64,000 bases of DNA, from positions 823,073 through 887,072 of the forward strand of contig NZ_LT841358.1 in assembly GCF_900177045.1 (NCBI RefSeq). Reading direction: 5' to 3'. Under the pieces are notes generated by a model. It saw only the letters and a program-made list of their open reading frames with translations, did no database searches and was not told the origin of the DNA. The stretch is from Candidatus Nitrosotalea okcheonensis (GTDB taxonomy: Archaea > Thermoproteota > Nitrososphaeria > Nitrososphaerales > Nitrosopumilaceae). The position numbers were made by a program, and so were the translations under genes. Of this stretch, positions 1,286 to 63,979 are shown one piece after another; positions within the stretch are counted from its first letter, which is position 1; each line of letters begins with the position of its first letter.

Positions 1286-1549
1286 TCACATGTACTTTTG
1301 TCTTTTTGGCCGACTCAGAAATATCGGATCGTTTCTAATCAACTTGCCTGTACCATCATAAAGACATACATGATAAAGCACCTGTCCATTGGATTCGGAT
1401 ATTTTCTTGACATGCATGGTATAAGTTTGTGTTTCAAATTTATCCCCGACATGAAGATTTCCAATCTTTTCTTTCAAATCAATTTCAGAGATTCCAATGA
1501 TACCAGACATCTCTTGGAAATATTTGTAATACTTGTTTCTAAGCTGCAT
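1286..1549 (-). CDS. Small conserved-context hypothetical protein
   Basis: 87 residues starting MQLRNKYYKYFQEM; charged, with no membrane segment or signal peptide. I do not recognise the family. The C-terminal half (YTMHVKKISESNGQVLYHVC) looks like a small beta sheet. Its start overlaps the end of the VirB4-like gene by 11 bp and it ends 11 bp before the pilin-like gene, so it is translated within the secretion operon. It is probably a cytoplasmic accessory factor of the ATPase, by position only. Confidence 0.55.
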   Translation of the reverse strand: MQLRNKYYKYFQEMSGIIGISEIDLKEKIGNLHVGDKFETQTYTMHVKKISESNGQVLYHVCLYDGTGKLIRNDPIFLSRPKRQKYM

Positions 1550-3341: not shown

Positions 3342-3389
3342 ATAATTTAGAGAGAATTTCTTTTTAAGGGAACGATGATCAAGAGTTGG

Positions 3390-48058: not shown

Positions 48059-48073
48059 CAAAATGAAAATGGG
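48059..48073. repeat. Target-site duplication, left
   Basis: CAAAATGAAAATGGG, identical to 63895-63909. It borders the left end of the casposon and copies the end of the tRNA-Pro gene plus 11 bases after it. Confidence 0.9.
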
Positions 48074-48104
48074 GGGTATAGATGAGGACTCTGCGTTTGA
48101 CTAT
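48074..48104 (+). repeat. Casposon terminal inverted repeat, left
   Basis: 31 bp beginning GGGTATAGATGAGGACTCTG, matched exactly and inverted at 63864-63894. Weaker similarity continues inward for about 16 bp (10 of 16), as far as 48120. Confidence 0.9.
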
Positions 48105-48210
48105 GAATTAACGTATGAATCAAAGTAAGAATTTTAGTTAGAATGAAAATTAGAACACGAGTTAAGATGAAACTGATTTTTCCTTAAATAATTCAATAGA
48201 TTTTCTAACA

Positions 48211-49002
48211 TTGTTGGTCACAAAAACAGATACACATGAATTACTGCATTTTATTGATCACCTATCGAATCTGAATACTTTGTTTGATGATTTTCCAGAT
48301 TTTAAAGAAGAGTCTTCTAAAATTTATGTTAGAACATCTGGTGGCATAGCAGATTCATTTGAGACTTTGCTTGAGAGATTAGACAATATTGGAGAGAAAA
48401 TAGAAAAAGTTGATGGTGTAAAATCGTCAATTAGACGATGGATAAACCGATTAGATAAAAATTATAGCGAGGATGAAGGTACCAATCTCCCGGTATATCT
48501 CACAAAAGAAGATGCAAAAGCTCTGAGGAAAGAAACTCAAAAATGGCTCGATAAGATAATTGAATCGTTTGATAATTCTGGCACGGCCATAATAAAGGAA
48601 AATCAAATCAATGAAGTCTTTTCAAAGGAAATAATGGATAGGTTAGACAATGATGCACAAAAGGATTTGAAAGAAGGAATTGACGTACTATTACATGGCT
48701 ATCCAACTGCAGCAACTATGATTTTATTCAGAATGGCAGAGAGAATGATCCGAGAATTATACAAAAACACTACAGGAAAGGAGGTTGGGAAAGAAACATG
48801 GGGACATATGCTTACAGCAATAGGACAACATGAGGACTTTCAAAAAAATGACGATAACAAAGTGTTGATGGGATATTTGTACTATCTTAACAAAAAGAGA
48901 ATCAATGCAGCTCATCCTTATAGAAGATACACTCAGGAAGAGGCAGAACGAATACTATTACAAATCAAAGATATGCTTGAAGAGATACATCATAGAAAGT
49001 AA
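48211..49002 (+). CDS. HEPN-type/DUF4145-like cargo protein
   Basis: 263 residues from a TTG (position of the start uncertain). N-terminal two-thirds are helical. The C-terminal part GIDVLLHGYPTAATMILFRM then AERMIRELYKNTTG and KKRINAAHPYRRYTQEEAER reads as a DUF4145/HEPN-type domain; RINAAH (residues about 230-235) is an R-x4-H motif. HEPN proteins are often RNases in defence and toxin systems. Function not tested. First gene inside the left end of the casposon. Confidence 0.55.
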   Translation: MLVTKTDTHELLHFIDHLSNLNTLFDDFPDFKEESSKIYVRTSGGIADSFETLLERLDNIGEKIEKVDGVKSSIRRWINRLDKNYSEDEGTNLPVYLTKEDAKALRKETQKWLDKIIESFDNSGTAIIKENQINEVFSKEIMDRLDNDAQKDLKEGIDVLLHGYPTAATMILFRMAERMIRELYKNTTGKEVGKETWGHMLTAIGQHEDFQKNDDNKVLMGYLYYLNKKRINAAHPYRRYTQEEAERILLQIKDMLEEIHHRK

Positions 49003-49139
49003 TTTTTAGAGAACATTTATTCTCAAAATTAACCAACAGTTCAGGCTCTACTTTTAGATACAATTCTAACTTTTCTAAATCATCTTTTCTATCATTCTAA
49101 AATGATCATCTTTATCTCAACAATACATCTAGTCTACAT

Positions 49140-49283
49140 GTGAGAACCGGAATACTGGTTACAGGGGCAATTCTCATAGTATTTGGAGTAATTGGATATG
49201 TGTATCCGGTAACAAGTGTAGGTTCAGTATCTGACATAGATGACCTGTGTAAATCAACCATTGGTTCTATAGGAAGGTGTTAA
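49140..49283 (+). CDS. Small membrane protein, 5' half (frameshift suspected)
   Basis: 47 residues from GTG 49140: LVTGAILIVFGVIGYVYPVT then SVGSVSDIDDLCKSTIGSIG. It ends just after the start of the next frame, whose opening LNEQVRENCQLAKYAVLGVY continues the same kind of protein. One extra base near 49276 would join them. Confidence 0.4.
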   Translation: MRTGILVTGAILIVFGVIGYVYPVTSVGSVSDIDDLCKSTIGSIGRC

Positions 49284-49546
49284 ATGAACAAGTTCGTGAA
49301 AATTGCCAACTTGCAAAATATGCTGTACTTGGGGTATACGCATTAATTGGAACTGGTGCAATTCTTGTAATTATAGGTAGTATAATAAAGAACAACTCTT
49401 ATTCAAATCAACCACTCAGCCCACATGCAAAAAAATCAATCATTGTTGTAATTGGAATAATTTTTGCAATAATTGTTGGAGTAATCGTATATCCGTTTTA
49501 TTGCAACCTGATATTTAAACGTCAAATCTTGCCTTTAGTGCAATGA
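49277..49546 (+). CDS. Small two-helix membrane protein, 3' half
   Basis: 89 residues: AVLGVYALIGTGAILVIIGS and SIIVVIGIIFAIIVGVIVYP are membrane helices. The start is GTG 49277. It probably continues the 49140-49283 frame as one disrupted gene of about 137 residues. It overlaps the next gene by 4 bp (ATGA). Confidence 0.5.
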   Translation: MLNEQVRENCQLAKYAVLGVYALIGTGAILVIIGSIIKNNSYSNQPLSPHAKKSIIVVIGIIFAIIVGVIVYPFYCNLIFKRQILPLVQ

Positions 49547-50073
49547 AAAATCAGCAACTAGTCAAAGTGTTAGATCAAGGTAGGGTTTCAAACACAGGGA
49601 ATTTTCACTATACTTCAAGTCATGATGATACATATTTCATCATCTTTAGTAATGAATTTTCAATCATTTCGACAAAGTCTGTGTCTTTTACATATGTATA
49701 CAACGGGCAACAGAACCATCAATCTTTTACAATACCACCGGGTGCATTCAAAAGTATGCCTGTATTGATACATTCAGGTCAGTCAATAACTGGAACTTTT
49801 ACGGCTTCTGGCGGTTCTGGAAATGATGTGGACTTTAACATCAGTACTATGACTTGTACTCAGACAGTCAACTTTAGTTTTAGTTTATCCAATACAGGTC
49901 AAGCAAATGGAAACGCGGATGTTGCATTTGAGGTAGATGGAAAACCAGTTTGGTCAAACAATTATTCAGTAGACATGGGAAAACAAACTAGCGTAAGTGG
50001 TTCTACATCATTATCAGATTGCAATCCGCACGATTACAAGGCAGTTGTTACAAACCAACAACGAACTAGATAA
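49543..50073 (+). CDS. GSGND-domain beta protein, N-terminally truncated
   Basis: 176 residues. Its start (YFIIFSNEFSIISTKSVSFT) matches the end of the domain in the 51449-51958 protein (YLIYDNTFSVLSSKEVSTDV), so it opens mid-domain. A second domain then begins with FTIPPGAFKSMPVLIHSGQS and ASGGSGNDVDFNIS (GSGND loop shared with the other protein). The first domain half and any signal are missing. Perhaps an extracellular beta module; function unknown. Confidence 0.55.
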   Translation: MKNQQLVKVLDQGRVSNTGNFHYTSSHDDTYFIIFSNEFSIISTKSVSFTYVYNGQQNHQSFTIPPGAFKSMPVLIHSGQSITGTFTASGGSGNDVDFNISTMTCTQTVNFSFSLSNTGQANGNADVAFEVDGKPVWSNNYSVDMGKQTSVSGSTSLSDCNPHDYKAVVTNQQRTR

Positions 50074-50136
50074 TCTGCAATAGATGAAAAACCTAGATAC
50101 AAAAAATTTATTATCTTCATTAGAGATTGTATTACA

Positions 50137-50244
50137 TTGGACAGTTTATCAGAAATGGCATTAGCAGGATTTGTTGGTACTACAGCTGCTAATCTAGTTA
50201 CTTTAATGCTGTCAAACGTCATAGAAAGTAAAAAAAATTACTAA
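50137..50244 (+). CDS. Very short possible membrane frame
   Basis: 35 residues from TTG (MDSLSEMALAGFVGTTAANL...). It looks like one hydrophobic helix with a Lys end. It sits alone in the 217 bp between two real genes. Could be chance. Confidence 0.25.
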   Translation: MDSLSEMALAGFVGTTAANLVTLMLSNVIESKKNY

Positions 50245-50290
50245 AAGTGTCACCTATTTCGACACTTTCATACGATGGTGGAGAAAATTT

Positions 50291-51019
50291 TTGAAGCCCC
50301 GAGTGATTTATCGCAATAGATTCATTAGATCTAGAACTGGTACTTTGGTGCTTGTCATTCCAGCACCATTGGCAAAAGAGATGGGTTTTAAAATTCATAA
50401 AAAATCGCGTGATTATGAAAAAGAGACTGTATTGAATTCAAGAAATGAAGAAGCCGGTTTATACATTTGGCTTAATTCTGATTATGAAATTGAGATGTGT
50501 GATACTTCAAAACCCTTGCAGAATACAAACGGCATAATGTCTACAGAGGGAGTACATCCGCATGGTAAATCATGTGAACTTACTATTCCATATAGTATAA
50601 GAACCACATATCAATTGCTAGGTATTGATCTTAACAAGGTGGATATTCTAAAAAATGAACAGGGCAATATAGTAGTCAAACCCCATCTAAACTCGAATAC
50701 CGTTTCAAACACATCTGGAACTAAAGTGCTAATTGATATAATGCGTGACGGGCTAGATGATACTCTGAGAAAACATGATTATGATGCACATAGCGTAAAA
50801 AAACTATGTGAGGAACAATCATTGAATCTTAGAAGCGATTTTTCCCTTATGAAATATGCAGAAAAACACAACATGATTATAGTAACAGAAGATAAAGACA
50901 ATGTACTGGGCTGTAGAGAAAATAATATGGACTGTGTTGAATTCGGTCAATCTGACACACTAGAATATCTTTTAGAAGAACTTGAAAAAATAATGCGAAA
51001 GCGAAACGATGATCTTTAG
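50291..51019 (+). CDS. AbrB-like plus DUF5615-type PIN fusion
   Basis: 242 residues from a TTG. N-terminal part has two AbrB-like hairpins: GTLVLVIPAPLAKEMGFKIH and HGKSCELTIPYSIRTTYQLL. The C-terminal part (from residue about 145) resembles DUF5615/Mut7-C PIN-like nucleases: VLIDIMRDGLDDTLRKHDYD, then NLRSDFSLMKYAEKHNMIIV and TEDKDN. Three Asp sites fit the catalytic positions. A toxin-like nuclease joined to its DNA-binding part would be self-contained. Activity is inferred. Confidence 0.65.
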   Translation: MKPRVIYRNRFIRSRTGTLVLVIPAPLAKEMGFKIHKKSRDYEKETVLNSRNEEAGLYIWLNSDYEIEMCDTSKPLQNTNGIMSTEGVHPHGKSCELTIPYSIRTTYQLLGIDLNKVDILKNEQGNIVVKPHLNSNTVSNTSGTKVLIDIMRDGLDDTLRKHDYDAHSVKKLCEEQSLNLRSDFSLMKYAEKHNMIIVTEDKDNVLGCRENNMDCVEFGQSDTLEYLLEELEKIMRKRNDDL

Positions 51020-51072
51020 AGAGTATTATAAAATAACCACATTTCTTTATTTATGAAAAATAATTAGAGTAC

Positions 51073-51381
51073 ATGGCAGTAAAGAAAGCAATCTCATCCA
51101 TTGATCTTTTGATTCAAGAAAAGAAGGAGTTTAGAACAAAAGTAGTAGGTTCGGAGGAATTGCCACCTCTCATTCAAGGTGATATTATCAATCGATTTGA
51201 TAGAGCAATGTGGTCTATGTTACAAGGAGACATTGAATGGTTACAGGCAATAAAAAGACAACTTTTGCCAGACCAACACAGAACAAAGATAGTTTGCAGA
51301 CATCCAAAGAAGGATCATGATACTGATGGCAGTGGTCAGAAATACTGTATGAATTGTAATGCAAATTTGCCCAGTTTATAG
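51073..51381 (+). CDS. Small protein with zinc-ribbon-like tail
   Basis: 102 residues. Helical N-terminal region (SSIDLLIQEKKEFRTKVVGS) and a C-terminal CRHPKKDHDTDGSGQKYCMN then C, i.e. C-x-H...C-x-x-C spacing for metal binding. No family recognised. 53 bp after the AbrB-PIN fusion, maybe same transcript. Confidence 0.55.
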   Translation: MAVKKAISSIDLLIQEKKEFRTKVVGSEELPPLIQGDIINRFDRAMWSMLQGDIEWLQAIKRQLLPDQHRTKIVCRHPKKDHDTDGSGQKYCMNCNANLPSL

Positions 51382-51448
51382 TTTCATTGTAAACAGAAAC
51401 ATGAATAAAAGTTAAGAAAATAATTCAGAATTATTGTTTTTAAAATTA

Positions 51449-51958
51449 CTAACTTGTGTATGTTAAAGATACATCGGTTGATACTTCTTTGCTTGATAAT
51501 ACGGAAAAGGTATTATCATAAATAAGATAAAGTGTTTGCCCGGACGGAATATTTGCATTAATGTTACCTACTGTCTCTTGACCACTGTTGTAATACACAT
51601 TTGATTGATGACCATTTCTCCAGTTGATAAAATTCTGATCATCCATTATGAATACACGTATGTCATTACCGCTTCCTCCTCCTGCAGTGAATTTGCCGCT
51701 TACGTAAGCATTAGTAGAACCAGAAGGGGCTGAAAATGTGTAATAAGTATAGGTATGTGCATTGACGTGAACCATGTCATTTACCAAAGACGCTGTATGT
51801 TGTGTAGGAACATAGACCGGAGCATTGTTCCCTCCACCTGAATAATTATTGGTATTGACCAAATGTGGTGCCACCATGAGAACTACAAAAACTACTGCTG
51901 CCCCTACAGCTGCAGGAATTGCTAATTTTGAATATTTTCTTTGTTTTGGCAGACTCAT
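51449..51958 (-). CDS. Membrane-anchored GSGND-domain protein
   Basis: 169 residues with an N-terminal anchor (LAIPAAVGAAVVFVVLMVAP) and a Gly/Asn linker, then a single beta domain: HTYTYYTFSAPSGSTNAYVS, KFTAGGGSGNDIRVFIM and YLIYDNTFSVLSSKEVSTDV. It shares both the GSGND loop and the closing segment with the 49543-50073 protein, so the two are paralogues on the casposon. Confidence 0.65.
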   Translation of the reverse strand: MSLPKQRKYSKLAIPAAVGAAVVFVVLMVAPHLVNTNNYSGGGNNAPVYVPTQHTASLVNDMVHVNAHTYTYYTFSAPSGSTNAYVSGKFTAGGGSGNDIRVFIMDDQNFINWRNGHQSNVYYNSGQETVGNINANIPSGQTLYLIYDNTFSVLSSKEVSTDVSLTYTS

Positions 51959-52090
51959 GTATGACTATCAAAAAATAATAGAAGATAAAGATGATCATAT
52001 GTTTCGTCATATGGAAACATGGCACTGCTTGTACCTGACAACAACAAATCATCAAATTCAGATGTATTCATGATACAAGTTTCTCGAATT

Positions 52091-52220
52091 TTACCGATAG
52101 TTGAGGAATAGTTACCGACAGTTTACAAGTTTCGATGATTCTTTTACCGACAGTTTACAAGTTTCGATGATTCTTTTACCGACAGTTTACAAGTTTCGAT
52201 GATTCTAGTATCGATAGTTT
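52091..52220. repeat. 32-bp tandem repeat, three exact units plus decayed ends
   Basis: Units start at 52112, 52144 and 52176 with period 32 (TTACCGACAGTTTACAAGTT then TCGATGATTCTT). Only the last base of unit 3 differs. Decayed starts lie at 52091 (TTACCGATAGTT) and 52208 (GTATCGATAGTTT). There are no spacers, so it is not a CRISPR array. It could be a replication origin with iterons or an operator. Confidence 0.9.
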
Positions 52221-52264
52221 TGGAAATTATCTTTTTTAATTCATCATACTTATTAGAAATCATC

Positions 52265-52393
52265 TCAAACTTTCCATTGACGTTGTATTCTCTCTACTAG
52301 TTTTGCACGTAATTTGATATTTTCAACCTGAACCTTTTCATATTCTATTTTCATTTTTTGTATTTTTTGATCCTTATTGACATCTTTTAACAT
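52265..52393 (-). CDS. Short coiled-coil protein
   Basis: 42 residues: MLKDVNKDQKIQKMKIEYEK then VQVENIKLRAKLVERIQRQW, a charged heptad-like helix. The ATG overlaps the stop of the 52387-53085 gene (ATGTTAA), so it is likely coupled to it. It ends 45 bp before the tandem repeats. Confidence 0.45.
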   Translation of the reverse strand: MLKDVNKDQKIQKMKIEYEKVQVENIKLRAKLVERIQRQWKV

Positions 52394-53085
52394 GATCTTC
52401 CAGAGAGTTTCAATTCATCAAAATCTTTGTCAGAATTCAACATTTTAGATGTCTGACCACCACTGTCTGTTCTATATGTTACCTGTATTTCCCATCTTTG
52501 ACTAGATTTCGTATAGGTGTCTATTGGATGTATTCCATGAATCAAACAATCTGACAAATTTGGCTCTTCTCTTCCAGTATGAATTTTAAAAAAATAACCC
52601 AGACCAATTACGTCCATTTTATAAAACTCTGAACCTCTGGATGATATTATTTTCCCCACCTTTTCATAAGTATACGAAGTAAGAAGATTACATTCATCAA
52701 TCAAATCATAGAATGACTCGACATCTTTTCTAAAATTGCTGTCTTCTATTAGGTGATAAGTGTAATTGTTTTTTATTGCTTTCCAAGTATTGACGATGAA
52801 TTGATAGTAATGTCTTGTACTTGATAGTAAATCATATCTTGTTTCAATTAGGATGCTTTCATCATAAAGGGGGCCATAAACACTGTCTACGGTTTTTATT
52901 ATGAAATCTCTCTTCCATGCTCTTCGTTGTGTTTTGGTCTGAACTACATATGATAATACAAAACCTATTGTCACACCTATAACAGTACCCGCAATCGGAT
53001 AATTTACAAAAAAGCTTATGGCCATTCCAGCAGTGGCCAAGATGGAAATTATCAATATACTTAGTTTATTCCATTCTGTTTCCAT
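52387..53085 (-). CDS. Membrane-anchored protein with cytoplasmic domain
   Basis: 232 residues. Two N-terminal helices (ILIISILATAGMAISFFVNY, TVIGVTIGFVLSYVVQT), then a basic segment (KTQRRAWKRDFIIKTVDSVY) and a cytoplasmic helical domain. The C-terminal part (QRWEIQVTYRTDSGGQTSKM) is beta-like. No family recognised. Divergent from the HEPN gene at 53149 (63 bp between starts), so it may form a pair: membrane protein plus nuclease. Confidence 0.55.
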   Translation of the reverse strand: METEWNKLSILIISILATAGMAISFFVNYPIAGTVIGVTIGFVLSYVVQTKTQRRAWKRDFIIKTVDSVYGPLYDESILIETRYDLLSSTRHYYQFIVNTWKAIKNNYTYHLIEDSNFRKDVESFYDLIDECNLLTSYTYEKVGKIISSRGSEFYKMDVIGLGYFFKIHTGREEPNLSDCLIHGIHPIDTYTKSSQRWEIQVTYRTDSGGQTSKMLNSDKDFDELKLSGRSC

Positions 53086-53148
53086 CTAGTATGCTTAGGT
53101 TGAATCTAGCATAAATAAAGATATGATTGACCTAGATTTGATTATATC

Positions 53149-54153
53149 ATGAGCAATGATAGTAATCCAGAAAAACTTCCAAGCGATAAAGAAATCAAGA
53201 AATTCATGAAAGATTTCATTCATGAATTCAAGCCATATGCAGCTAAATTAACTGGAGAAAACATGTCAATGCATTATGACAACAATGATTTACAGAATAT
53301 TAAAAATTTCATTGAATTGGCAAATGATTACAATCGAAAAGAAAACTCCATTGCAAGTGAAGACATTGCGGAACACGCAAAGTTACAAAAACGAATGGAT
53401 CTAACAGATGATATTCTAAAATCTATTTTGGGATTAACGTCAGATAATCCAGCACTTGAATTGGCTCAAATATCCAATCCGAAAAATTCCTACGAAAAAA
53501 TCATTCCAGATATAAATTACAGGACATTAATGCGGGGTACAATACATAAGGTTCTTCACACCATAGATCAGATGGGAAAACTGGAACAAATTAACAATTT
53601 CATAAAATCCATGAGACCTGATGATGTTTTTGCAATGTCACAAAGTGCCATTAGGGTTAACGAGATTATACGATCTGTATTGAAGACTAGAAAAAGAATT
53701 ACAAAGGAAATAGTGGAACAATATGTAGAAAACTATAAAGAAATATCGGGTTTCTTGGAACCGCTAATTGTAGTGCTTTTTGGTATGCAACAAATCATAC
53801 AGGATAAATACAAACTTTTTACGGAAATTAAAGAGAAAATTCCCATTGGAAATCTAACCAATCAACTAAAATCTGATCAAATGTTCAATCCTCTAGTGGA
53901 AAAATATGATCCACGCACAAGGAATTCTATAATACATGTTAGTTATCATATAGATCCAATAAATAAAAAAATCGAATTTAATGATAAAGGAAAAATGTTT
54001 TCATTAACTTATTCGAAATTTGTTGAATATGTGCAAGAAGTGACCAAGATTGCAATCATAATATGTCATTTTGAGGAGGAGATCAGATTTCTCACATTTC
54101 TAGGATATGCCAAAAAAAGAGATGATACTCTCAATCTCAATATTGAATACTAA
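53149..54153 (+). CDS. HEPN-domain protein
   Basis: 334 residues, nearly all helical. Near residue 258 the motif RTRNSIIHVSYHIDPINKKI holds RNSIIH, the canonical HEPN R-x4-H with a polar residue after Arg. FSLTYSKFVEYVQEVTKIAI follows, as in HEPN proteins of the apea/C-terminal type. HEPN RNases act in many toxin-antitoxin and abortive-infection systems. The N-terminal domain (about 190 residues) is unknown and may sense or bind the partner. A four-helix membrane protein is 38 bp downstream. Confidence 0.65.
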   Translation: MSNDSNPEKLPSDKEIKKFMKDFIHEFKPYAAKLTGENMSMHYDNNDLQNIKNFIELANDYNRKENSIASEDIAEHAKLQKRMDLTDDILKSILGLTSDNPALELAQISNPKNSYEKIIPDINYRTLMRGTIHKVLHTIDQMGKLEQINNFIKSMRPDDVFAMSQSAIRVNEIIRSVLKTRKRITKEIVEQYVENYKEISGFLEPLIVVLFGMQQIIQDKYKLFTEIKEKIPIGNLTNQLKSDQMFNPLVEKYDPRTRNSIIHVSYHIDPINKKIEFNDKGKMFSLTYSKFVEYVQEVTKIAIIICHFEEEIRFLTFLGYAKKRDDTLNLNIEY

Positions 54154-54191
54154 GACAACAAATACAAACTATTATTGTCACATGTTAGAAT

Positions 54192-54737
54192 ATGTCTGAT
54201 GATTGTGCACCTACTCGTTTAAGTAAGATACTAAGTTTTTTGCCACCAATACGGATTGTAACCATTCTTAGTATCATGGTATTATTCCCATCTCTGAGAT
54301 TATCGTGGGAATTTGCTGTTGTGATCTATCAAGGGTTTGCTTTCTTTTTCGTGGGTAGTTTTGTAATGGAATGGATTTTAATTTCCAAACTAAAAGGACT
54401 TCGCAAGGAATTCTGGCCTCTGTATAGCAAATATGTGGCATCGCTACCGTTCGAATTTCTTGGCGTGTTTGTATTTGTCATATACAGCTTTAGGCCTAAT
54501 TCTGGCTCTGTTGATTGGGATGAAGTAAAGTTTGCTTCAATAGCATTGGGAGGGGGAACGATTTTAGAAATACTTCATCGTTATGTATATCCAAAACTGC
54601 CTAAAGGTAAGGAAATTAAAAGTGCAAAAGATATAGGTGTAAAAGAAATTCTGTCAATCATATCATTGACGGTATTGATTGTTTTTCTGGGATTATATAC
54701 AGTCATATGGCAAGATAACGTGATTTTAAAAATTTAA
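54192..54737 (+). CDS. Four-helix membrane protein
   Basis: 181 residues with membrane helices at about 20-38, 48-65, 80-105 and a C-terminal one (ILSIISLTVLIVFLGLYTVI). Acidic/basic loops. It follows the HEPN gene by 38 bp on the same strand, so possibly an effector or partner. Similar small membrane proteins occur at 61371 and 63433 in this casposon. No family recognised. Confidence 0.55.
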   Translation: MSDDCAPTRLSKILSFLPPIRIVTILSIMVLFPSLRLSWEFAVVIYQGFAFFFVGSFVMEWILISKLKGLRKEFWPLYSKYVASLPFEFLGVFVFVIYSFRPNSGSVDWDEVKFASIALGGGTILEILHRYVYPKLPKGKEIKSAKDIGVKEILSIISLTVLIVFLGLYTVIWQDNVILKI

Positions 54738-54758
54738 TGAGTGTTTTAAAAATTTAAA

Positions 54759-55988
54759 TTAATCTTTATTAAATTTTAACAAACTTTTATCGTAAAATTT
54801 AACTTTTTTACCATCTTGTATGTTCTTTTTCATGTACCAAAGCGTAGATTTGTTGATTCCAAGTCTTTTCCTCTCATCAGGCGTCATTTTCAGTATTTTC
54901 CCTTTAAAATCCAAAGTATCCTCGTTTTTAATTTTAAATTCTGGAATTTTAAAATCAATTTTATCACTTTTATCAGCTATTAAATTTGCATAGTCTTGAA
55001 TTTTATAAAATAAAACATTTTCATAGGTGTAATTCTTGCCTTTAAACGGGGCTTTTAAATTAAAATTATTTTTAATTTTTAAAATTAATGCCTTGGCAGT
55101 TGACTCTTTTAATCTTATATTATAATTCTCTGTCACAATAAAATCTGATTTCTTCAACTTGGGCTTGCTGTCAAGTAATTGGATAACTGAATAATCTACA
55201 ATCCATCGAAATAACTCCTGAAAGTCATAGACTAACGGAGTTTTAGCATATGCTAACTCGTGCAACAAGCCAATAGTTGGGTCTAAACCAATAGAGTTTA
55301 ATGACTTTTTAACTTCTGACTCTAAAATGGCATATCCGTAATTTAACAAGGCATTAATTTCATCGGATGCATTGGCATTCCACGAGTTAGACTTGTTCAT
55401 TCTTCCCACGAATTTAAAATCAGGCGCCAATTCTGTAACTAATTTTTTAAATTGATCAAGATAAATTTGGGCAATCCGACCTTCAAAATTCATTAATTTT
55501 TTCAATTTATCTGAAATTGTGCCTGTTTGATCTTTAAAATTTAAATTATTAAATTCATTGTTAAATTGTTTATTAAATTTATTAAAATTTAAAACATTAT
55601 AAAATCTTGATAATTCTTTAATTAAATTCAATGAACTTGTTATTTTGCTATTAACAATTTCAATGGCAATTTTAAACCTGAACTCGTTGTCAAGATACTT
55701 TTGGTACTGTTTTATTCTTACTTTACCTATTTTTGGCTCTTGTGGGAGGGTTACTCCTAGCAGATTCCCATTCCAATTTAACATCGTGAGATTGACATCG
55801 TGTTTTAAAAGCCACCTCATGGACTCGAATGTTATGCTACCAGAATGTCCATCTACTACTATGCTATCATGATCAATTTGATGTGGATAAAACTCTAGTT
55901 TCTCATTTTTTAACTTGTTTTGAATGACTAGTTTTCGTTTTTCTACATTGATTGATGTACCAAAGCCTGAAATTAATAATGGATTCAT
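54759..55988 (-). CDS. cas1: Casposase (Cas1 homologue with C-terminal HTH)
   Basis: 409 residues. The N-terminal beta region (VVDGHSGSITFESMRWLLKH then VNLTMLNWNGNLLGV) and helical domain are Cas1-type. Catalytic metal ligands: E223 (AILESEV), H243 (IGLLHELAY) and D255/E258 (VYDFQEL). A C-terminal HTH at about 365-395 (PDERKRLGINKSTLWYMKKN) is the casposase tail lacking in CRISPR Cas1 and very like the end of the polymerase. No Cas2, Cas4 or CRISPR array is nearby. Cas1 here inserts the element. Very high AT with TTTAAAAT runs; codon use is more AT-biased than neighbours. It overlaps the upstream HTH gene by 4 bp. Confidence 0.95.
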   Translation of the reverse strand: MNPLLISGFGTSINVEKRKLVIQNKLKNEKLEFYPHQIDHDSIVVDGHSGSITFESMRWLLKHDVNLTMLNWNGNLLGVTLPQEPKIGKVRIKQYQKYLDNEFRFKIAIEIVNSKITSSLNLIKELSRFYNVLNFNKFNKQFNNEFNNLNFKDQTGTISDKLKKLMNFEGRIAQIYLDQFKKLVTELAPDFKFVGRMNKSNSWNANASDEINALLNYGYAILESEVKKSLNSIGLDPTIGLLHELAYAKTPLVYDFQELFRWIVDYSVIQLLDSKPKLKKSDFIVTENYNIRLKESTAKALILKIKNNFNLKAPFKGKNYTYENVLFYKIQDYANLIADKSDKIDFKIPEFKIKNEDTLDFKGKILKMTPDERKRLGINKSTLWYMKKNIQDGKKVKFYDKSLLKFNKD

Positions 55989-56704
55989 TTTTTCTTGTCT
56001 CCTATGTGATATTTGAGAATATATGGTCTAGTATGTGGAGTTACACTATCTTGAATCCATATGGCATCAATCGCTTTTTCTTTTTTCCACAGTTTTCCCC
56101 ATTTTTCATAAGAGTCATTTTTTACCATTTTGACTATTTCATCATAGTTTAGCGATATGCCCAAAATGATACTTCCTGTTTTATCGTCTCGTAAATCCAG
56201 TTTTTTGTTTTGAATATTTTCAAGTATGTGACGGATAAGTTCATTTTGAATTCTAATCAAATACTCTTTAGAGATTAGCTGAAAAAGATCAATGCTCTGA
56301 TCTACAGCAACATGAACCGTGCTAGGCCAAAACAATGGTTCTGGTTTACCAGATTTTGGTACTGGAGCCATTGGGACTCCACCTGAAAGATATTTCCCGC
56401 CTCGCTCCTTTATCTCGGTTAAAATATTCTGTAACAGAAAAATTTCATTATATGCAGATTCTCCCTTTTCTGTTAGCTTGTAGGCTTCGTTTTCATTATG
56501 AATTGTTTTTGTAATCAATCCATTTTTTCGGAGTAATTTTAAGTGCTTACTTAGAGTAGTATGAGAAAATAATACTGCATTTTCCAGTTCTTTGAATGTT
56601 TTAGGAGATTTTTCAAGCGCTAGAAGTATGTCTTCTTGATGTTTTCCCTCATCATATTTCTGCTGTCTAGCTGTATATTGCACCATTGACTTGAGTTTAC
56701 TCAA
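55985..56704 (-). CDS. Winged-helix protein paired with casposase
   Basis: 239 residues from TTG 56704 (ATG 56686 is the alternative). N-terminal ArsR/MarR-like winged helix: ILLALEKSPKTFKELENAVL then FSHTTLSKHLKLLRKNGLIT and YKLTEKGESAYNEIF. The remainder is unknown, with PVPKSGKPEPLFWPSTVHVA in the middle. It precedes cas1 by a 4-bp overlap and is divergent from the AbrB-HTH-HNH-polymerase operon (42 bp between starts), so it may regulate both. Confidence 0.75.
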   Translation of the reverse strand: MSKLKSMVQYTARQQKYDEGKHQEDILLALEKSPKTFKELENAVLFSHTTLSKHLKLLRKNGLITKTIHNENEAYKLTEKGESAYNEIFLLQNILTEIKERGGKYLSGGVPMAPVPKSGKPEPLFWPSTVHVAVDQSIDLFQLISKEYLIRIQNELIRHILENIQNKKLDLRDDKTGSIILGISLNYDEIVKMVKNDSYEKWGKLWKKEKAIDAIWIQDSVTPHTRPYILKYHIGDKKK

Positions 56705-56746
56705 CTCATTGGAGTAGTTTAAGTTTTCGCCTCCATATACTATGTC

Positions 56747-56929
56747 ATGGTTAAAACAAATATTCGTAAAATCGGAAAAATCGGCAGTTATACACGCATG
56801 CTTACATTGCCTTTGTTTTGGCTAGAGATAGTCGGGCTTGATGTAGGCGATTTTGTAGAACTGTCACTTGGCAAGAACAAGGAACTTGTCATAAAACCAA
56901 AGAGGGTTAAAAATGAAAAGAAGGAATGA
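56747..56929 (+). CDS. AbrB-like regulator
   Basis: 60 residues: NIRKIGKIGSYTRMLTLPLF then WLEIVGLDVGDFVELSLGKN, the swapped-hairpin pattern with a basic tail. First gene of the polymerase operon. Its end overlaps the next gene's ATG by 17 bp. Confidence 0.7.
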   Translation: MVKTNIRKIGKIGSYTRMLTLPLFWLEIVGLDVGDFVELSLGKNKELVIKPKRVKNEKKE

Positions 56930-57407
56930 AAATTGGAAAGTAGATTTAGATCTACTCACTCCAAAACAACTTGCAAAATATCATGATTCGATTGAAGCAT
57001 TATACTTGATACGTCATGGTTCTTTACTAAAAAAAGCATCAAAAATAACTAGAGTTTCTGTTTCAACGATAAAAAAATACGTTGGTTCTACATTAAGAGT
57101 AAATAATCGTAAAACAATTGCAAGAAAATCTGATAGTCTATTACGTAAAATGAGCATCTATGAAAACGGAAAAGAAGTTTTCATTCAAGTAAAAGGCAGA
57201 AAAAAAGCATCACTTATTGGCAAGTATCATAGTGCAATTGGAAGACTAGATCAAAATGATATGACCAAATTACAGTCGTTCCAAGAAATAAAAATCAGAG
57301 ACATTAAAGGCAAAGTACACAAATTCGAAATCAATGTTGACAAGATAAAGCAAATTCTTGAACGTATTGAAGAACCAGAATTCTTCGATATTTACAGGAG
57401 TAATTGA
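56913..57407 (+). CDS. HTH-containing protein
   Basis: 164 residues. IRHGSLLKKASKITRVSVST then IKKYVGSTL is an HTH resembling recombinase or resolvase-type helices near residue 40-70. The rest is basic and helical. It ends one base before the HNH gene's ATG region, so translation is coupled. Such HTH proteins are known in casposons but their role is open. Confidence 0.65.
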   Translation: MKRRNENWKVDLDLLTPKQLAKYHDSIEALYLIRHGSLLKKASKITRVSVSTIKKYVGSTLRVNNRKTIARKSDSLLRKMSIYENGKEVFIQVKGRKKASLIGKYHSAIGRLDQNDMTKLQSFQEIKIRDIKGKVHKFEINVDKIKQILERIEEPEFFDIYRSN

Positions 57408-57408
57408 A

Positions 57409-57744
57409 ATGAAAGATTACTTTACCAAAATATTAGGATTAATTGCAGAAAAGACATGGACTGATAAATTTGCAACAGGACAAGGATTTTGCATAATCTG
57501 TGGGCACGATGATCCATTAGATCTGGAATATCATCATGTTGCAGGGAAAAACAACAGTTCTCTTGTTGTCTCATTGTGTAGAAATTGTCATGGTAAAGTT
57601 TCAAGGAAACAACAAATTTCATGGCCAGATGAATGGTCAAGTAAAGACAACAGTCTCAAGTACAAAGAAGGATTGATGTTAAGAGGGCTCTCAGACCTTA
57701 TGCGTGTAAAATCTGATCATATTCTTCATGGTGATACTGTATGA
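57409..57744 (+). CDS. HNH endonuclease
   Basis: 111 residues from ATG 57409, preceded by GGAG at about 57396-57399. CIICGHDDPLDLEYHHVAGK then SSLVVSLCRNCHGKVSRKQQ is an HNH core with CxxC, HH and a second CxxC. HNH nucleases are a constant casposon gene; they may nick the ends or the host. It overlaps the polymerase by 4 bp. Confidence 0.85.
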   Translation: MKDYFTKILGLIAEKTWTDKFATGQGFCIICGHDDPLDLEYHHVAGKNNSSLVVSLCRNCHGKVSRKQQISWPDEWSSKDNSLKYKEGLMLRGLSDLMRVKSDHILHGDTV

Positions 57745-60464
57745 ATGAAGAAACCATCGCCATTCGTGCCTACACCGTGCCCAAAAAGAGTAATTTGGGT
57801 AAAAATAAACCCAAATCATACAAAAGACCAGATGATAACGCAAATCCCACATTTGATAGGGTTCTAGTCTTTGATACAGAAACTACTACAGACCTATATC
57901 AGAACCTCAAATTCGGGTATTTTGAAACTTATCAGTATGGCGTTCTTGAAGAAAAAGGCCTCTTTTACGATCCCATAATTGTAAAACCAAAAGAATTGGC
58001 AATACTGGAGTCATACTCTAATGAAAACAATATTTCATTGTACACACTAGAAGATTTTCGTAAAATATTTCTTGGTGAAGTTTATGATCTTCAGACATTA
58101 TGTATTGGATTTAACTTGCCATTCGATCTTACAAGAATTGTATTAAAATCAACTAATGCTAGAAAAAGAAAAGATGCATTTTCACTTGAACTTTCCAAGA
58201 ATCTAAAATATCCAAGATTATATGTCACACATGCTACAAACACGTTATCATTTATCGAGTGGGCAAATTCAATGATATGGAACGGGTTCAAAGGGAATTT
58301 TGTTGATCTTCGTACCTTGTGCCATGCCCTTACCGATACAAAACATTCTCTTGAAAGTGCATGTAAAGCATTTGATACAGAATTTCAAAAATACAAAGCA
58401 AAAGAACATGGAGTTATCAACACTACATACATTAATTATTGCATTAACGATGTAAAATCTACCTATTCACTATACCAAAATACGAAAAAAGAATTTGATA
58501 CTTACGGATTGAAAATTCCTGTAATTAGAGCCTACACACCTGCATCAATTGGAAAAGAATTTCTCAAGAAAATGGGTGTTAAACCATTCTTTGATAAAAG
58601 CCCAAAGTTCTCAAATGAAATAATTGGAAATATAATGACGGGATATTTTGGTGGAAGGACAGAATGCAAGATTAGAAAGACTCCTGTCAAAGTGGATGTA
58701 CTTGACTTTCTTAGTATGTATCCTACCGTTTGTACACTACAAAATCTTTGGAAATTCGTAATTGCAGATCATATAGAGCACGTTGAGGCAACCCAAGAAA
58801 TAATCCAATTTGTAGACGGAGTCACTTTGAGAGATATCCAAAACAAGGAAAACTGAACAAAATTACAGGCAATTGTGCTTGTAGAACCTCAAGAAGATGT
58901 GCTTCCCATCAGGGCAAAATATGGTCAAAAACACGTCTGGAATATAGGCACAAGCCACGTTTCTTCTAAAACGCCCCTTTGGTACAGTCTTGCTGATGTA
59001 ATTGCCTCAAAACTATACACAGGAAGAACACCCAAGATATTGCGTGCTATTAGATTTGTTCCAATAGGCACACAAAAGAGACTAGAAAAAATAGACATTC
59101 ATGGAGTCAAGATCAATCCTTACACTCAAGATCTATTCAAAGAATTAATCGAATATAGACAAACCTTGAAAAAGAAACGTGATGGTTTTACAGAAACTGA
59201 TTCTAAATATTCCTATTATGACAGAAAACAAAACGTAGTCAAGATTATAACAAATGCAATAAGCTATGGAATTTTTGTTGAAATAAACACTTTGGAAGAA
59301 TCATACAAGGTTCCAATTGATGTCTATGGTCTGTATCATTTTCAACAAGAAAAAACCAAGATTGAAAAATCTGGGTTTATGTTCAATCCCATAATTGCTG
59401 TGTGTATAACATCTGCATCAAGATTATTGCTTGCAGTAACGGAAATTTTGCTATCAAATAATGGTTCTAGTCATGCATATTGTGATACAGATTCTATGAT
59501 GGTACATTCAGAGCATACAAAAGAAATTCAAGAATTCTTCCAGTCATTAAACCCATATAGTTTTAATACGGAGATATTCAAACTAGAAAGAAAAGATGTT
59601 TGGTTTTATGGAATATCTGCAAAAAGATACTGTCTTTATACAATAGAAGATAATAAAATTATAATCGAAAAAGAAAATTATTCATCTCATGGTCTGGGGC
59701 ATCTTTTAGATCCATTTGCTAATGACTCCGACAAAAAAGATGACTGGCACAAAATAATTTGGCATGATATTCTCGGTTTGCATTATGGAACTGTATCCAT
59801 GGAACAACTGATTGAAAAATATGAAAACAAGTATGCCTTGTCTCAACTTTCAATTTCAACTCCTAGAATACTTGATAGATTAAGAGAATTTAACGAGGGT
59901 AAAGACTATCATCATCAAATCAAACCGTCAAATTTCTCTCTAGTGGGATTTGCAAATGCCACTGATGAGAAAAATTCTCAAATCAAGCCAATTGCGCCCT
60001 ATAGGAATCCTGCAAAACATGCAGTCTATGACTATTTTGTGGATTATTATGACAAATCTAGGCACAAATTAAGAGGAAAGCAGTACTGGAAGACCTTTTG
60101 GAGTACATTTAGGGATTATCTTGGTCATCATGAATCAAAATTTGATGGCAATACTGGAATATTAGCAAGAAAGTATGTCGATGTCATTGGAATAGTACAC
60201 ATTGGAAAGGAAAGCAACAATTTGGAAGAATCAGAGGTTTTAGGAACTAGTTCGGATAGTTATGAAATCTATGAGAATATTGAAAACATAGAACAAAGAT
60301 TCATTAAGATTGCAAAAGATGTTTTGAAATTAAACCCAAGAGATGTTAAAAAATTTGGAATATCAAAGCAGACTTTGTGGAATGTAAAAAGAAAAATAAA
60401 ATTGAATCAGTATAATAAAATTTCAAATAAAATTAAATCACAAATTTTGTGTACCATTAGTTAG
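57741..60464 (+). pseudogene. polB: Protein-primed family B DNA polymerase with in-frame TGA
   Basis: About 907 codons with one stop (TGA at 58854-58856). Exonuclease: FDTETT (about 45-47), NLPFD (about 124-128) and YCINDVKS (233-237). Polymerase: DFLSMYP (about 321), KIITNAISYGIF (about 502) and YCDTDSMMVH (about 579). After the stop the same frame resumes with TKLQAIVLVEPQEDVLPIRA, so a TGG Trp codon became TGA, or it is read through. A C-terminal HTH (LNPRDVKKFGISKQTLWNVK) matches the casposase tail. Would copy the casposon by protein priming. Listed as pseudogene because of the stop. Confidence 0.85.
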
Positions 60465-60492
60465 TCTAATAACACTTGATATCAGATTAATT

Positions 60493-61230
60493 TTAAAATT
60501 CAACCGGGAATCTAGGAGTAAAAGTTTGTTCTAACTCTGTTACATTTTTTATTCTATCCATTCTAAAACCTCGAATGGCATTTTTTCGTATATCCCATGC
60601 AAAAAAGAGTACGGTTCCTCCTTTTCCTCTATGTCTAAAGCTGTATGGTTCTACAACTCTTGGCTCCACAGACCCATCTTCTTCACGTGCTTCAATCCAC
60701 ATCAGCCTACGTTTTTGCCCTGTATGTTGAATAATCCGAGTAATGCTTTCGTGATACAATATTGCCTTTACATATGCAAGTATATCTACTGTAAATTCAT
60801 CTTTCATAATTGTCAAGTCTAATCCGCATACTAGACCCAAGATGCCATTTTCATAACCATTCGTGAAATCTGCATATTTTATGTCGATTATTATTGATGG
60901 GATTTCACATTTCTCTTTTAATACTAGGAGAATTCTTACTGAGTTATCTTTCAGTTTCTTCATTACTGCCGAGGAAAGTTCTTTTTTAACCCAATTGGAA
61001 TTAACAGAATTTGTTGATAATATTATTATCAAATCTGTCATTTTACCAAGAGCAGAATCAATCTTTCCTACTATAGAATCTCCAACTTTAATTTCCCACC
61101 TATCAAAGAACATTGGAAATTTGTATTTTGTTAAATCAATGGCTAGATTTTCTACAAACTCTTTGTCTGTTGAGGAATAACTAAGAAAACCAAATCTCTC
61201 TTTTCTAGTAGACATAATATCTCGTGCCAT
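60493..61230 (-). CDS. TIR-WYL fusion protein
   Basis: 245 residues. TIR domain 1-135: FLSYSSTDKEFVENLAIDL, FDRWEIKVGDSIVGKIDSAL and SNWVKKELSSA, with E84 at the NADase position. The C-terminal part (about 175-240) has the WYL pattern: VEPYSFRHRGKGGTVLFFAW and GFRMDRIKNVTELEQTFTPR. TIR enzymes cut NAD+ in antiphage and plant defence; WYL domains bind nucleic acid or nucleotides and often regulate defence genes. No Thoeris ThsA, SAVED or other partner is seen. ATG 61215 is an alternative. Convergent with the polymerase. Confidence 0.75.
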   Translation of the reverse strand: MARDIMSTRKERFGFLSYSSTDKEFVENLAIDLTKYKFPMFFDRWEIKVGDSIVGKIDSALGKMTDLIIILSTNSVNSNWVKKELSSAVMKKLKDNSVRILLVLKEKCEIPSIIIDIKYADFTNGYENGILGLVCGLDLTIMKDEFTVDILAYVKAILYHESITRIIQHTGQKRRLMWIEAREEDGSVEPRVVEPYSFRHRGKGGTVLFFAWDIRKNAIRGFRMDRIKNVTELEQTFTPRFPVEF

Positions 61231-61235
61231 AATAT

Positions 61236-61283
61236 GTTATTAAATAATAACAGTATGAAGATTTAGTATCTTAAACTTAAGAT
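61236..61283. promoter_or_regulatory. Two 7-2-7 palindromes before the TIR-WYL gene
   Basis: GTTATTAAATAATAAC (61236-61251) and ATCTTAAACTTAAGAT (61268-61283), both 7-base arms with a 2-base centre, lie 5 and 37 bp upstream of the TIR-WYL start and also in front of the rightward membrane gene at 61371. A dimer-binding site for the WYL part is possible. Confidence 0.55.
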
Positions 61284-61370
61284 GACATACGATCATCGTA
61301 AAAATATTATGAAAAATGATTTCTCTGAAAACCGCATTGTTTAATTTTATAGCATTGATTCAACAAGCAA

Positions 61371-61991
61371 GTGAGCAATTCTAATAGAAAAAAGGATTAT
61401 TGGGAAATTTACTTAGATTTGGCAGATGTTATTTTTGGAGTAATTATTGCAGCCAGTTTTCTGAATTTCCAAGCAATACTTGTACCCTTTAAGCTTAATT
61501 TTGCAACCATGATGTTACTGTCAGCATATTTGACAGTGGTTCTCAGTTGGATTGGTTATCATAAGGCAGTGGAAGATAAACCTCACAAAAATGTGTCACG
61601 ATTTGTTATTGATCTGATTCTTTTGTATTTTTACTTTTATCTCATATTCACTAATAATATCAAAGATTTCCTTGGCGTATTAGCAGCTATATTCCTTCTT
61701 TATCTAATATGGGTAGTTCTACGAAATAACGAATATAAGAAAGAAACCAAAGAACAACGCAGACAAGAGCACTTTAAAATTGTCCGATCTTCTATTTTCT
61801 TTCTAGCATTCATTATTTTATGGGGATACTATAGAACCTATTTACAAGGAATCGGTGATGAGTTCCTAGGTGGAAAATTAATTGATTGGGTCATGTTAAT
61901 TATAGCAACAAGTTTGAACATACTTTATAGAGTTATTTGGCCTCTCCTGTCAAAAAGATTCAGTAGTTCATTGTCATCAAAAAGTAATTAG
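61371..61991 (+). CDS. Polytopic membrane protein
   Basis: 206 residues from GTG 61371. About six helices (DVIFGVIIAASFLNFQAI, TMMLLSAYLTVVLSWIGY, FVIDLILLYFYFYLIFT, FLGVLAAIFLLYLIWVVL, IFFLAFIILWGYYRTYL, LIDWVMLIIATSLNILY). Divergent from TIR-WYL across the palindromes, so it may be its partner or membrane effector. No family recognised. Confidence 0.6.
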   Translation: MSNSNRKKDYWEIYLDLADVIFGVIIAASFLNFQAILVPFKLNFATMMLLSAYLTVVLSWIGYHKAVEDKPHKNVSRFVIDLILLYFYFYLIFTNNIKDFLGVLAAIFLLYLIWVVLRNNEYKKETKEQRRQEHFKIVRSSIFFLAFIILWGYYRTYLQGIGDEFLGGKLIDWVMLIIATSLNILYRVIWPLLSKRFSSSLSSKSN

Positions 61992-62004
61992 TTCATCATG
62001 CAAC

Positions 62005-62367
62005 TTATTTTGCAAACTGGTATCTATGTTCAATTTTTTGTTCTGGAATTTCTTTAATGTTAAAGAAAATCTTCTTTCCATGTTGTTTTGCATATTCTAA
62101 TTCAAGATTTGCACCACGTGATGGTGCCAAAAGTAGTAATGCATCGCAATCCTCTAACCACGCATGATCCATTTCTATGTAATCTTCCCATTTCAAACCT
62201 TGTTTTGTTTCTTGACTTCGTAATTCTATCCAGTGAGTCAAATGTGGAAGATACGGATAATGTCCTTTTTTATAAATCGCAATAGCCGCATCAATAGCAT
62301 TATTGACATTCTTCTGTATTTCTAAATCAGTAGATGCAGTATAAGGCCCTGCAACATATATTTTCAT
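62005..62367 (-). CDS. Nucleoside deoxyribosyltransferase-like (DUF4406) protein
   Basis: 120 residues from ATG 62367: MKIYVAGPYTASTDLEIQKN then YPYLPHLTHWIELRSQETKQ and MDHAWLEDCDALLLLAPSRG with NLELEYAKQHGKKIFF. This is the NDT/DUF4406 Rossmann-like fold; GPY and SRGAxxE are the substrate sites. These enzymes move or hydrolyse deoxyribose or NAD-type glycosides. Near a TIR gene it may act in a nucleotide-based defence, but it could be metabolic. Convergent with the membrane gene. Confidence 0.7.
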   Translation of the reverse strand: MKIYVAGPYTASTDLEIQKNVNNAIDAAIAIYKKGHYPYLPHLTHWIELRSQETKQGLKWEDYIEMDHAWLEDCDALLLLAPSRGANLELEYAKQHGKKIFFNIKEIPEQKIEHRYQFAK

Positions 62368-62502
62368 ATTGTCTGCCATCATGTAAGAAAGTATCAAAAA
62401 CCGGTATATAATGAATAGTTTCTTTAGGATGTGAACTATCAGTCAAACTAAAGTTCTTTGTATTAAGAAACCTGTAAAATATCTATGTAGTAAAAATTGG
62501 AT

Positions 62503-63432
62503 TTATTCCTTTAATGTTTCATGTCTTTTTTCGAATTCTTCGATCTGTGCCTGAAATTCTACCTCCGAAATATCTGGTTGTTCACTTACCCACTGAGCTA
62601 AACTTTTAGCTTCAAGATCGTTATCACTTATGTCCTGCAAAGTTTCCACAATATCCTTGTCAAAAAATTGTCTTATTCTTTCTACTTGATAAGGTTCCAG
62701 AAATGTTCCCGCGGGACCATTAATACCAAATTTTTGTTCTATGGGAGTATACTGTAATGCAACTGGATACTCTAGAATATGCAAGATAATTACAGATTTA
62801 GCAACCTTGATCACCAACTCAGACCATTTCAATAAGGATTTTTCATTGAAGCGATTGCAAGTAGAATTGCCTAAATCCATATTAGAATGAGAACGTCCTT
62901 TGGTATGTACAAAATCTGATAACTGTTTGAAAATATTGTCTAGTTCATTAAAGATTTCATGCTTATCATCAAATTTTCTAAAGTTTTGATTGGTTTTGAG
63001 TTTTGTATACATGGTTTTTTTACGCTGGGTATTTTCAAACGAATGTAACCATTTCTGAATATCCACATGGCTTCTTCCATCAATATCCCAGTATACCGAT
63101 AGAAGTCCAAGCTCCAGAACACTTCTTAATGCTATGAAGGCATGTTTGTAAAACCCAAGTTTACAAAGCATAATTGAATTTTCCAACTCGGAATTGGCTT
63201 CTACAATAGGAAACATATGACCAGACCAAAACTTTTCTACTGTCTGAGGCATCAAATCTTCAAGCGAATGGAAAACAGAGAGGAGACTCCTTATTCTAGA
63301 AGATAGATCCTTATTCGATTCCAAGTACCTGTTACTTTGTTCTAAAACTTGTAGAATATTTTCGTCTGAGTTAATTAGATGCATATGACTCTTGTTTGAT
63401 TTGTTGGTAGCCATTGAATAAATTGATTTCAA
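62503..63432 (-). CDS. DUF5677-like/HEPN-type cargo protein
   Basis: 309 residues, helical. MLCKLGFYKHAFIALRSVLE then LGLLSVYWDIDGRSHVDIQK and FKQLSDFVHTKGRSHSNMDL resemble DUF5677/AbiV-type HEPN relatives with Arg and a later His. The C-terminal quarter is acidic. It overlaps or abuts the membrane gene at 63433-63801 (same strand, no gap). Probably paired with it. Confidence 0.5.
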   Translation of the reverse strand: MKSIYSMATNKSNKSHMHLINSDENILQVLEQSNRYLESNKDLSSRIRSLLSVFHSLEDLMPQTVEKFWSGHMFPIVEANSELENSIMLCKLGFYKHAFIALRSVLELGLLSVYWDIDGRSHVDIQKWLHSFENTQRKKTMYTKLKTNQNFRKFDDKHEIFNELDNIFKQLSDFVHTKGRSHSNMDLGNSTCNRFNEKSLLKWSELVIKVAKSVIILHILEYPVALQYTPIEQKFGINGPAGTFLEPYQVERIRQFFDKDIVETLQDISDNDLEAKSLAQWVSEQPDISEVEFQAQIEEFEKRHETLKE

Positions 63433-63801
63433 CTAGAATTTTGAAAATGGAAGAAATACATACGTCATTCCTCCTAAAACAATGAATACCAAGGTAAAAC
63501 ATGCGACACCATAATAATATGAAAATCGTATTTTTTCGTGAATTTCTTTTCTATTGGCTAATCCGCTATAAAGGAAATATCCTATTAACATACTCATCTC
63601 GATAAGAAAATTCTGACTTGTCAATTGTTTGTGAAATGCCCCGTTTATGGCATCATTAACAACAAAGGTGATCATTACCGCTAAAATTATCATAAATACT
63701 GATCTTCTCAAAATTGGCTTCTTTTTTACTATCATGGGAGCAACTCTGTCAGCAATCAGCATTACAATGAAACTCAAAATGAATATAGAAAATGAATCCA
63801 A
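63433..63801 (-). CDS. Small membrane protein
   Basis: 122 residues with four helices (SIFILSFIVMLIADRVAPMI, VFMIILAVMITFVVNDAI, FLIEMSMLIGYFLYSGLA, YGVACFTLVFIVLGGMTYVF). Abuts the DUF5677-like gene. The last cargo gene before the right terminal repeat. No family recognised. Confidence 0.55.
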   Translation of the reverse strand: MDSFSIFILSFIVMLIADRVAPMIVKKKPILRRSVFMIILAVMITFVVNDAINGAFHKQLTSQNFLIEMSMLIGYFLYSGLANRKEIHEKIRFSYYYGVACFTLVFIVLGGMTYVFLPFSKF

Positions 63802-63863
63802 CAGTATACTATCTCATCATTACTTTAAAAATTTAGTTCTAGTTTTCATTCGTACTTTGGTAT

Positions 63864-63894
63864 ATAGTCAAACGCAGAGTCCTCATCTATACCC
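63864..63894 (-). repeat. Casposon terminal inverted repeat, right
   Basis: Exact inverted match to 48074-48104; ends TATACCC at 63888-63894. Weaker match continues inward to about 63848. Confidence 0.9.
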
Positions 63895-63909
63895 CAAAAT
63901 GAAAATGGG
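63895..63909. repeat. Target-site duplication, right
   Basis: CAAAATGAAAATGGG; identical to 48059-48073. The last four bases (63906-63909) belong to the tRNA-Pro 3' end. Confidence 0.9.
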
Positions 63910-63979
63910 ATCGGCCGGATTTGAACCGACGACCTCAGGTACCCAAAACCCGAATCATGCCAAGCTAGACCACGATCCC
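63906..63979 (-). tRNA. tRNA-Pro (anticodon UGG)
   Basis: 74 bases. On the minus strand the acceptor GGGATCG pairs with CGATCCC plus discriminator A; the anticodon loop is TTTGGGT in a CGGGT/ACCTG stem (TGG anticodon); the T arm is GTCGG-TTCAAAT-CCGGC. CCA is not encoded and no intron is seen. Its last four bases are inside the duplicated target, so the tRNA is intact after insertion. Confidence 0.95.

Follow-up and report, generated by a model that had tools for sequence, protein, structure and literature searches.

Does a casposon whose DNA polymerase gene is interrupted by one in-frame stop codon carry a polymerase that has recently died, one that is recoded, divided or replaced in trans, or simply a wrong base? 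The question is raised by a 64,000-nt stretch of the genome of Candidatus Nitrosotalea okcheonensis, an ammonia-oxidising member of the archaeal Nitrosopumilus group (contig NZ_LT841358.1, positions 823,073 to 887,072; henceforth termed the window). On translation, a 907-codon frame for a casposon family-B DNA polymerase (PolB; 57741-60464, plus strand) contains a sole internal stop, the TGA at 58854-58856 (codon 372). The frame and its one stop are a real, confirmed observation; their meaning has to be sought in the element that carries the gene, in the relatives of the polymerase and in the decoding capacity of the host.

The interrupted gene lies within a family-1-like casposon of about 15.8 kb (48073-63895) at the 3' end of a tRNA-Pro gene (Table 1). 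Two of the features that mark a casposon are found, namely a Cas1 integrase (PF01867) and terminal inverted repeats with a target-site duplication, and the earlier note's assignment of PolB to such an element is borne out by the intact 32-nt ends, the target duplication and the presence of Cas1. At up to three mismatches, the terminal inverted repeat occurs in two copies only in the 1.97-Mb genome. The Cas1 gene is likewise the only one in the genome, and its product mismatches 2 of 101 columns that are invariant in 10 relatives. The core genes (Cas1, the regulator, the MazE/AbrB-like, 164-aa and HNH-like proteins and PolB) also adjoin one another in relatives, and the five conserved casposon genes besides polB showed no frameshift. 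Matches of the HNH-like gene (57409-57741) in PHROGs are weak, the best having E=1.2e-5. Two genus members without a PolB match (G205, G210) carry the duplicated block joined directly to tRNA-Pro (99% identity), and the left flank's first 56 bases are found 0.8 and 1.3 kb off, an arrangement that resembles an unoccupied site.

Table 1. Coordinates of the casposon features and the interrupted polymerase gene in the window.
Feature	Position	Strand	Remarks
Left target-site duplication	48060..48073		AAAATGAAAATGGG; direct repeat with 63896-63909; 14 bp (13-15 depending on shared-base assignment)
Left terminal inverted repeat	48073..48104	+	32 nt; matches the right end perfectly
Cas1 (casposase)	54759..55988	-	409 aa, uninterrupted; PF01867 E=1.7e-56
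Winged-helix (ArsR/HxlR-like) regulator	55985..56704	-	Overlaps cas1 start; homologues in 5 relatives' loci
MazE/AbrB-like protein	56747..56929	+	60 aa; PF04014 E=5.6e-4, under the curated cut-off; homologues in relatives' casposons
Casposon-conserved protein	56913..57407	+	164 aa, without family match; homologues in 12 relatives' loci
HNH-like small protein	57358..57744	+	Listed start TTG, ATG at 57409; directly 5' of polB; homologues in 12 relatives' loci
polB 5' part	57741..58856	+	371 codons before TGA; contains the exonuclease motifs plus polymerase motif A
In-frame TGA	58854..58856	+	Column is Trp (TGG) in 20/20 relatives reaching the position
polB 3' part	58857..60464	+	In frame with the 5' part; carries motifs B, C and KxY and an HTH-like tail at the C terminus; earliest candidate restart codon GTG 58875
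Right terminal inverted repeat	63864..63895	-	32 nt
Right target-site duplication	63896..63909		Overlaps tRNA-Pro 3' end
tRNA-Pro(TGG)	63906..63979	-	Integration target; from tRNA search

The casposon also carries cargo. Directly 3' of polB, 60493-61230 encodes a protein with TIR (Toll/interleukin receptor) and WYL domains, which may be cargo with a role in defence or regulation, and at 52112-52220 a 32-bp unit stands three times in tandem. A 102-aa cargo protein (51073-51381) is identical over 100 residues to one encoded in G180 (L069:15294-15599), near the right end of a casposon at the same tRNA-Pro, with 94% DNA identity over 302 nt; since the core genes of the two elements are only 45-76% identical, this points to recent exchange of the cargo. 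Further afield, an 18-nt pattern from the terminal inverted repeat found two IMG/VR contigs (L104, L105), each with a 22-nt exact match that may be due to chance, and the examined DNA of these contigs showed no Cas1 or PolB homology.

Relatives of the polymerase align with query residues 1-903 of 907 in a single tblastn alignment, at 52-65% identity (64% in one example). As these matches run unbroken over both sides of the TGA, the polB frame is one gene rather than a chance join. The earlier note had read the same protein-like frame on both sides of 58854-58856, which the full-length homology to uninterrupted relatives supports, and its finding that the exonuclease and polymerase motifs are all intact likewise holds on either side of the stop. 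DTETT, GFNLPFDL, the third exonuclease region and DFLSMYPT lie 5' of it; K501-NAISYG, YCDTDS and KRY, the remaining polymerase motifs, lie 3'. Within the 64-kb window, a single stop parts two open stretches of 80 codons or more at six sites, of which two (58854 and 3390) were examined. Site 3390 separates what we take to be two distinct ATPase genes, one VirB4-like and one VirB11/TadA-like; this adjoining pair (1539-4874) possibly belongs to another integrated element.

To judge the stop against the family, we compared the gene with its relatives. PolB matches were found in 36 of 250 family genomes and in 36 of 400 order genomes, two overlapping sets. The alignment comprised 23 relatives. Removed beforehand were, by hand, the locus of the window itself, three short or decayed hits (L012, L026, L027) and a fragment (L030), and, by the E-value limit, L028 and L029. 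These 23 define the scope of the column check, with extra copies in G159, G155, G174, G150 and G175, for which no locus is given, lying outside it. Tryptophan occupies the codon-372 column in each of the 20 relatives that reach it, always as TGG, the other three being fragments that end short of the column, and W372 is nearly invariant in alignment A1 (21 sequences). This is the residue that the earlier note had expected in other casposon polymerases, and its proposed refutation, a family alignment with two proteins split here, did not materialise: all 20 relatives are continuous across the column. In G174, a decayed copy bearing 11 stops keeps the tryptophan at this column, and none of these stops aligns to a tryptophan. 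Matches of at least 500 query residues in the family and order searches (n=28) were free of stops over the aligned stretch in 25 cases; the three others are the window gene (one stop), a 5'-truncated copy in G300 (one) and the decayed G174 copy (11).

No near-identical copy of the element by which the mutation could be dated turned up among the 250 family and 400 order genomes, or in a search of the genome contig database (6 loci), and a profile scan of IMG/VR, in which 28 stretches matched the pattern, gave no confirmed relative. The closest relative is 67% identical, a distance at which synonymous divergence was judged too large for a useful dN/dS. Constraint was instead read from conserved columns. 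The window PolB departs at 5 of 216 columns that are invariant in ten close relatives (2/74 in the N part and 3/142 in the C part), and the same count for each relative against the other nine runs from 2/218 to 58/274; the value falls within this range, so the protein, apart from the stop itself, shows no relaxation. In a predicted model of the read-through PolB, made with 20 relatives (pLDDT 85.3, pTM 0.82), residue 372 closes a short helix (369-372) ahead of a strand (377-382) and lies between motif A (~322-329) and motif B (~501-510). Because the TGA separates these two motifs, neither product would be a whole polymerase, and on the model neither fragment should polymerise alone.

Taken together, we consider it probable that one recent nonsense mutation has left the casposon polymerase-null. 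It is the simplest account in that it requires a single change and fits with the lack of accompanying decay and with the intact ends. On this account polB would have gained its one stop recently, at an otherwise invariant tryptophan codon, and translation would end after 371 residues, giving a product with the exonuclease domain and motif A and without motifs B and C, so that no element-encoded polymerase would be expected. As Cas1, both inverted repeats and the small genes of the core are intact, the ends should still be usable by Cas1, while self-synthesis would be lost unless a polymerase comes in trans. The sequence itself, the conserved tryptophan, the lack of other decay and the intact element are shown; a genuine base, a non-functional product and lost replication are what we infer. 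By descent, with a polB gene stopped at codon 372, the element is a casposon; its function is probably that of a non-autonomous element. Among the options listed in the earlier note, a recently dead element and a base error both fit the conserved tryptophan and the intact element.

The latter, in which the TGA is an assembly error and the gene is intact, is the main rival, and we regard it as unlikely. A wrong base would give the same outcome in all tests run: the rest of polB is under ordinary constraint, no other conserved gene of the element looks broken, and a faulty base would leave the gene just as free of a second lesion. Moreover, with two of the six candidate sites examined, polB is the only single-stop gene split identified in the window. 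Against an error stand the assembly, a single 1.97-Mb contig with an estimated completeness of 99.78%, and the unshifted frames of the other conserved casposon genes. Contig quality and these intact genes suggest a decent consensus and are silent on base 58856 itself. Syntenic host genes, considered as a gauge of the error rate, yielded three matches in the flanks of G180 and G200, all at ~45-47 kb, and no usable estimate.

A further reading, compatible with the nonsense mutation, is that the element is still mobile and draws its polymerase from the host or a co-resident element, which we think quite improbable. Both ends and Cas1 are intact, and casposase by itself can integrate end-bearing DNA in vitro, according to the excerpted text of PMC9939771. 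The genome, however, has no second copy of the polymerase, the insertion may predate the mutation, and the helper polymerase resident in the genome that the earlier note had offered was not found, the sole genome match to PolB being the gene itself. We attach a comparably slim chance to the broader idea of a real and tolerated stop in a casposon clade that moves with Cas1, intact ends and a borrowed or host polymerase, its own PolB being dispensable.

Less probable again, and in our view very unlikely, is a polymerase of two polypeptides, in which translation stops at the TGA, reinitiates at GTG 58875 and the parts assemble. This start codon lies just 18 nt 3' of the TGA, and the C part is open from there for a second fragment of 529 aa. 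Certain phages and archaea have family-B polymerases that are split by nature. The polymerase gene of the casposon NitNCS1-C1 has, in addition, been reported as fragmented, and its functional state as unclear (part of PMC6563490). In the present family, however, where the relatives of a two-subunit enzyme would be split at the same place, the 25 long matches without a stop are all unsplit, and the stretch between stop and GTG encodes residues that relatives share, so nothing here looks evolved for reinitiation. The truncated G300 polymerase, which starts at about residue 388-390, was considered as a natural split and rejected on account of its extra stop and the unrelated frame upstream.

Readthrough of the UGA, or its reassignment to tryptophan (or selenocysteine), is scarcely credible even though the replaced codon is exactly a tryptophan codon and the frame downstream is still conserved: TGA ends 20 of 57 ORFs in the 64-kb window (a greedy non-overlapping set of at least 120 aa, the truncated polB among the 20), and it also closes three core genes of this casposon, namely the regulator and the pair immediately 5' of polB; the 41 tRNA matches in the genome comprise an intron-bearing Trp(CCA) and none assigned a UCA anticodon, the L088 assignment being doubtful; tRNA-Sec gave no genome match over the cut-off and three weak ones below it; a cmscan of the window returned two tRNAs only and no SECIS over the Rfam cut-off; none of the 20 relatives has a stop at the codon-372 column; and the stops of the decayed G174 copy avoid tryptophan positions. 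A recoded gene would share its stop with relatives or be accompanied by a decoding tRNA, and neither was found. On stop usage, tRNA content and the family alignment we therefore reject UGA recoding, and with it the corresponding options of the earlier note. If the stop is real, this UGA should not be annotated as recoding.

Under the preferred reading, a recent nonsense mutation, a real stop would mean that a near-intact casposon has been caught just after the loss of its polymerase, and nature would offer a test of whether a casposon can move without a polymerase of its own.

The insertion site allowed a side observation on targets. In seven of 13 related loci (L067-L079), a tRNA lies 7-10 nt before the start of the repeat (GGGGTA-like or close): tRNA-Pro in G180 and G200, tRNA-Ser in G217 and G037, and tRNA-Glu in G115, G027 and G138. 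In an eighth, G159 (L074), what looks by eye like the 3' end of a tRNA stands there, and the remaining five are without a tRNA-adjoining repeat start, some of them ending at contig ends. G180, G200, G037 and L074 show duplications of ~13-14 bp that take in 3'-terminal bases of the tRNA, and the casposon may point either way relative to the tRNA among this element and relatives L069, L070, L072 and L074. These sequences suggest that casposons of this group use tRNA 3' ends; a limited literature check found no report of tRNA-targeting family 1 elements.

Placement among known systems draws on several features and, for published casposons, on text in PMC4046053, PMC6563490, PMC9939771, PMC12097351 and PMC7544198. 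In a fold comparison, the predicted PolB matched phi29 DNA polymerase (PDB 1xhx) with Z 14.1 over 498 residues at 4.6 A, many other B-family polymerases lying within one Z unit, and a sequence profile gave weak matches to Pol alpha and archaeal PolB. The two proteins share 16% identity, and the casposon PolB differs in being longer, with a C-terminal tail. As far as the available portions of PMC4046053 and PMC6563490 describe them, the family 1 casposons of Thaumarchaeota (NitAR1-C1, NitSJ-C1, NitNF5-C1 and others) resemble our element in having Cas1 and a family-B polymerase, terminal inverted repeats, target-site duplications and conserved small genes directly 5' of polB, and in their host group. 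The description of 3-4 small genes directly 5' of polB is matched here by 56747-56929, 56913-57407 and 57358-57744, and the same portion of PMC4046053 names a protein-primed PolB as the defining feature of family 1, along with a compact Cas1 without an extra domain. The known family 1 elements differ in targeting ef-2, another protein gene or an intergenic site, whereas the present one occupies a tRNA-Pro 3' end, tRNA genes being the target given for family 2 in the excerpted casposon papers. The polB stop and an HTH-like C-terminal tail shared by Cas1 (54759-54900) and PolB (60300-60464) also set our element apart, and the same excerpts give such a tail as a family 2 trait. The two tails align with a score of 73, which none of 1000 shuffles reached (maximum 50), and that of Cas1 looks like an extra domain.

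Stops in casposon genes are themselves of a kind already known, to judge from the portions of these papers that report stop mutations in MetBur-C3 and a fragmented polymerase in NitNCS1-C1. MetBur-C3 of Methanococcoides burtonii, judged to be inactivated, has stop (amber) mutations in two genes (PMC4046053, in part); it is alike in that casposon genes bear stops, and differs in its methanogen host, in having UAG in place of UGA, in having two genes hit and in adjoining related copies. NitNCS1-C1 of Ca. Nitrosotalea okcheonensis, as described in part of PMC6563490, is alike in its interrupted polB and its insertion in tRNA-Pro, and differs in being reported as family 2.
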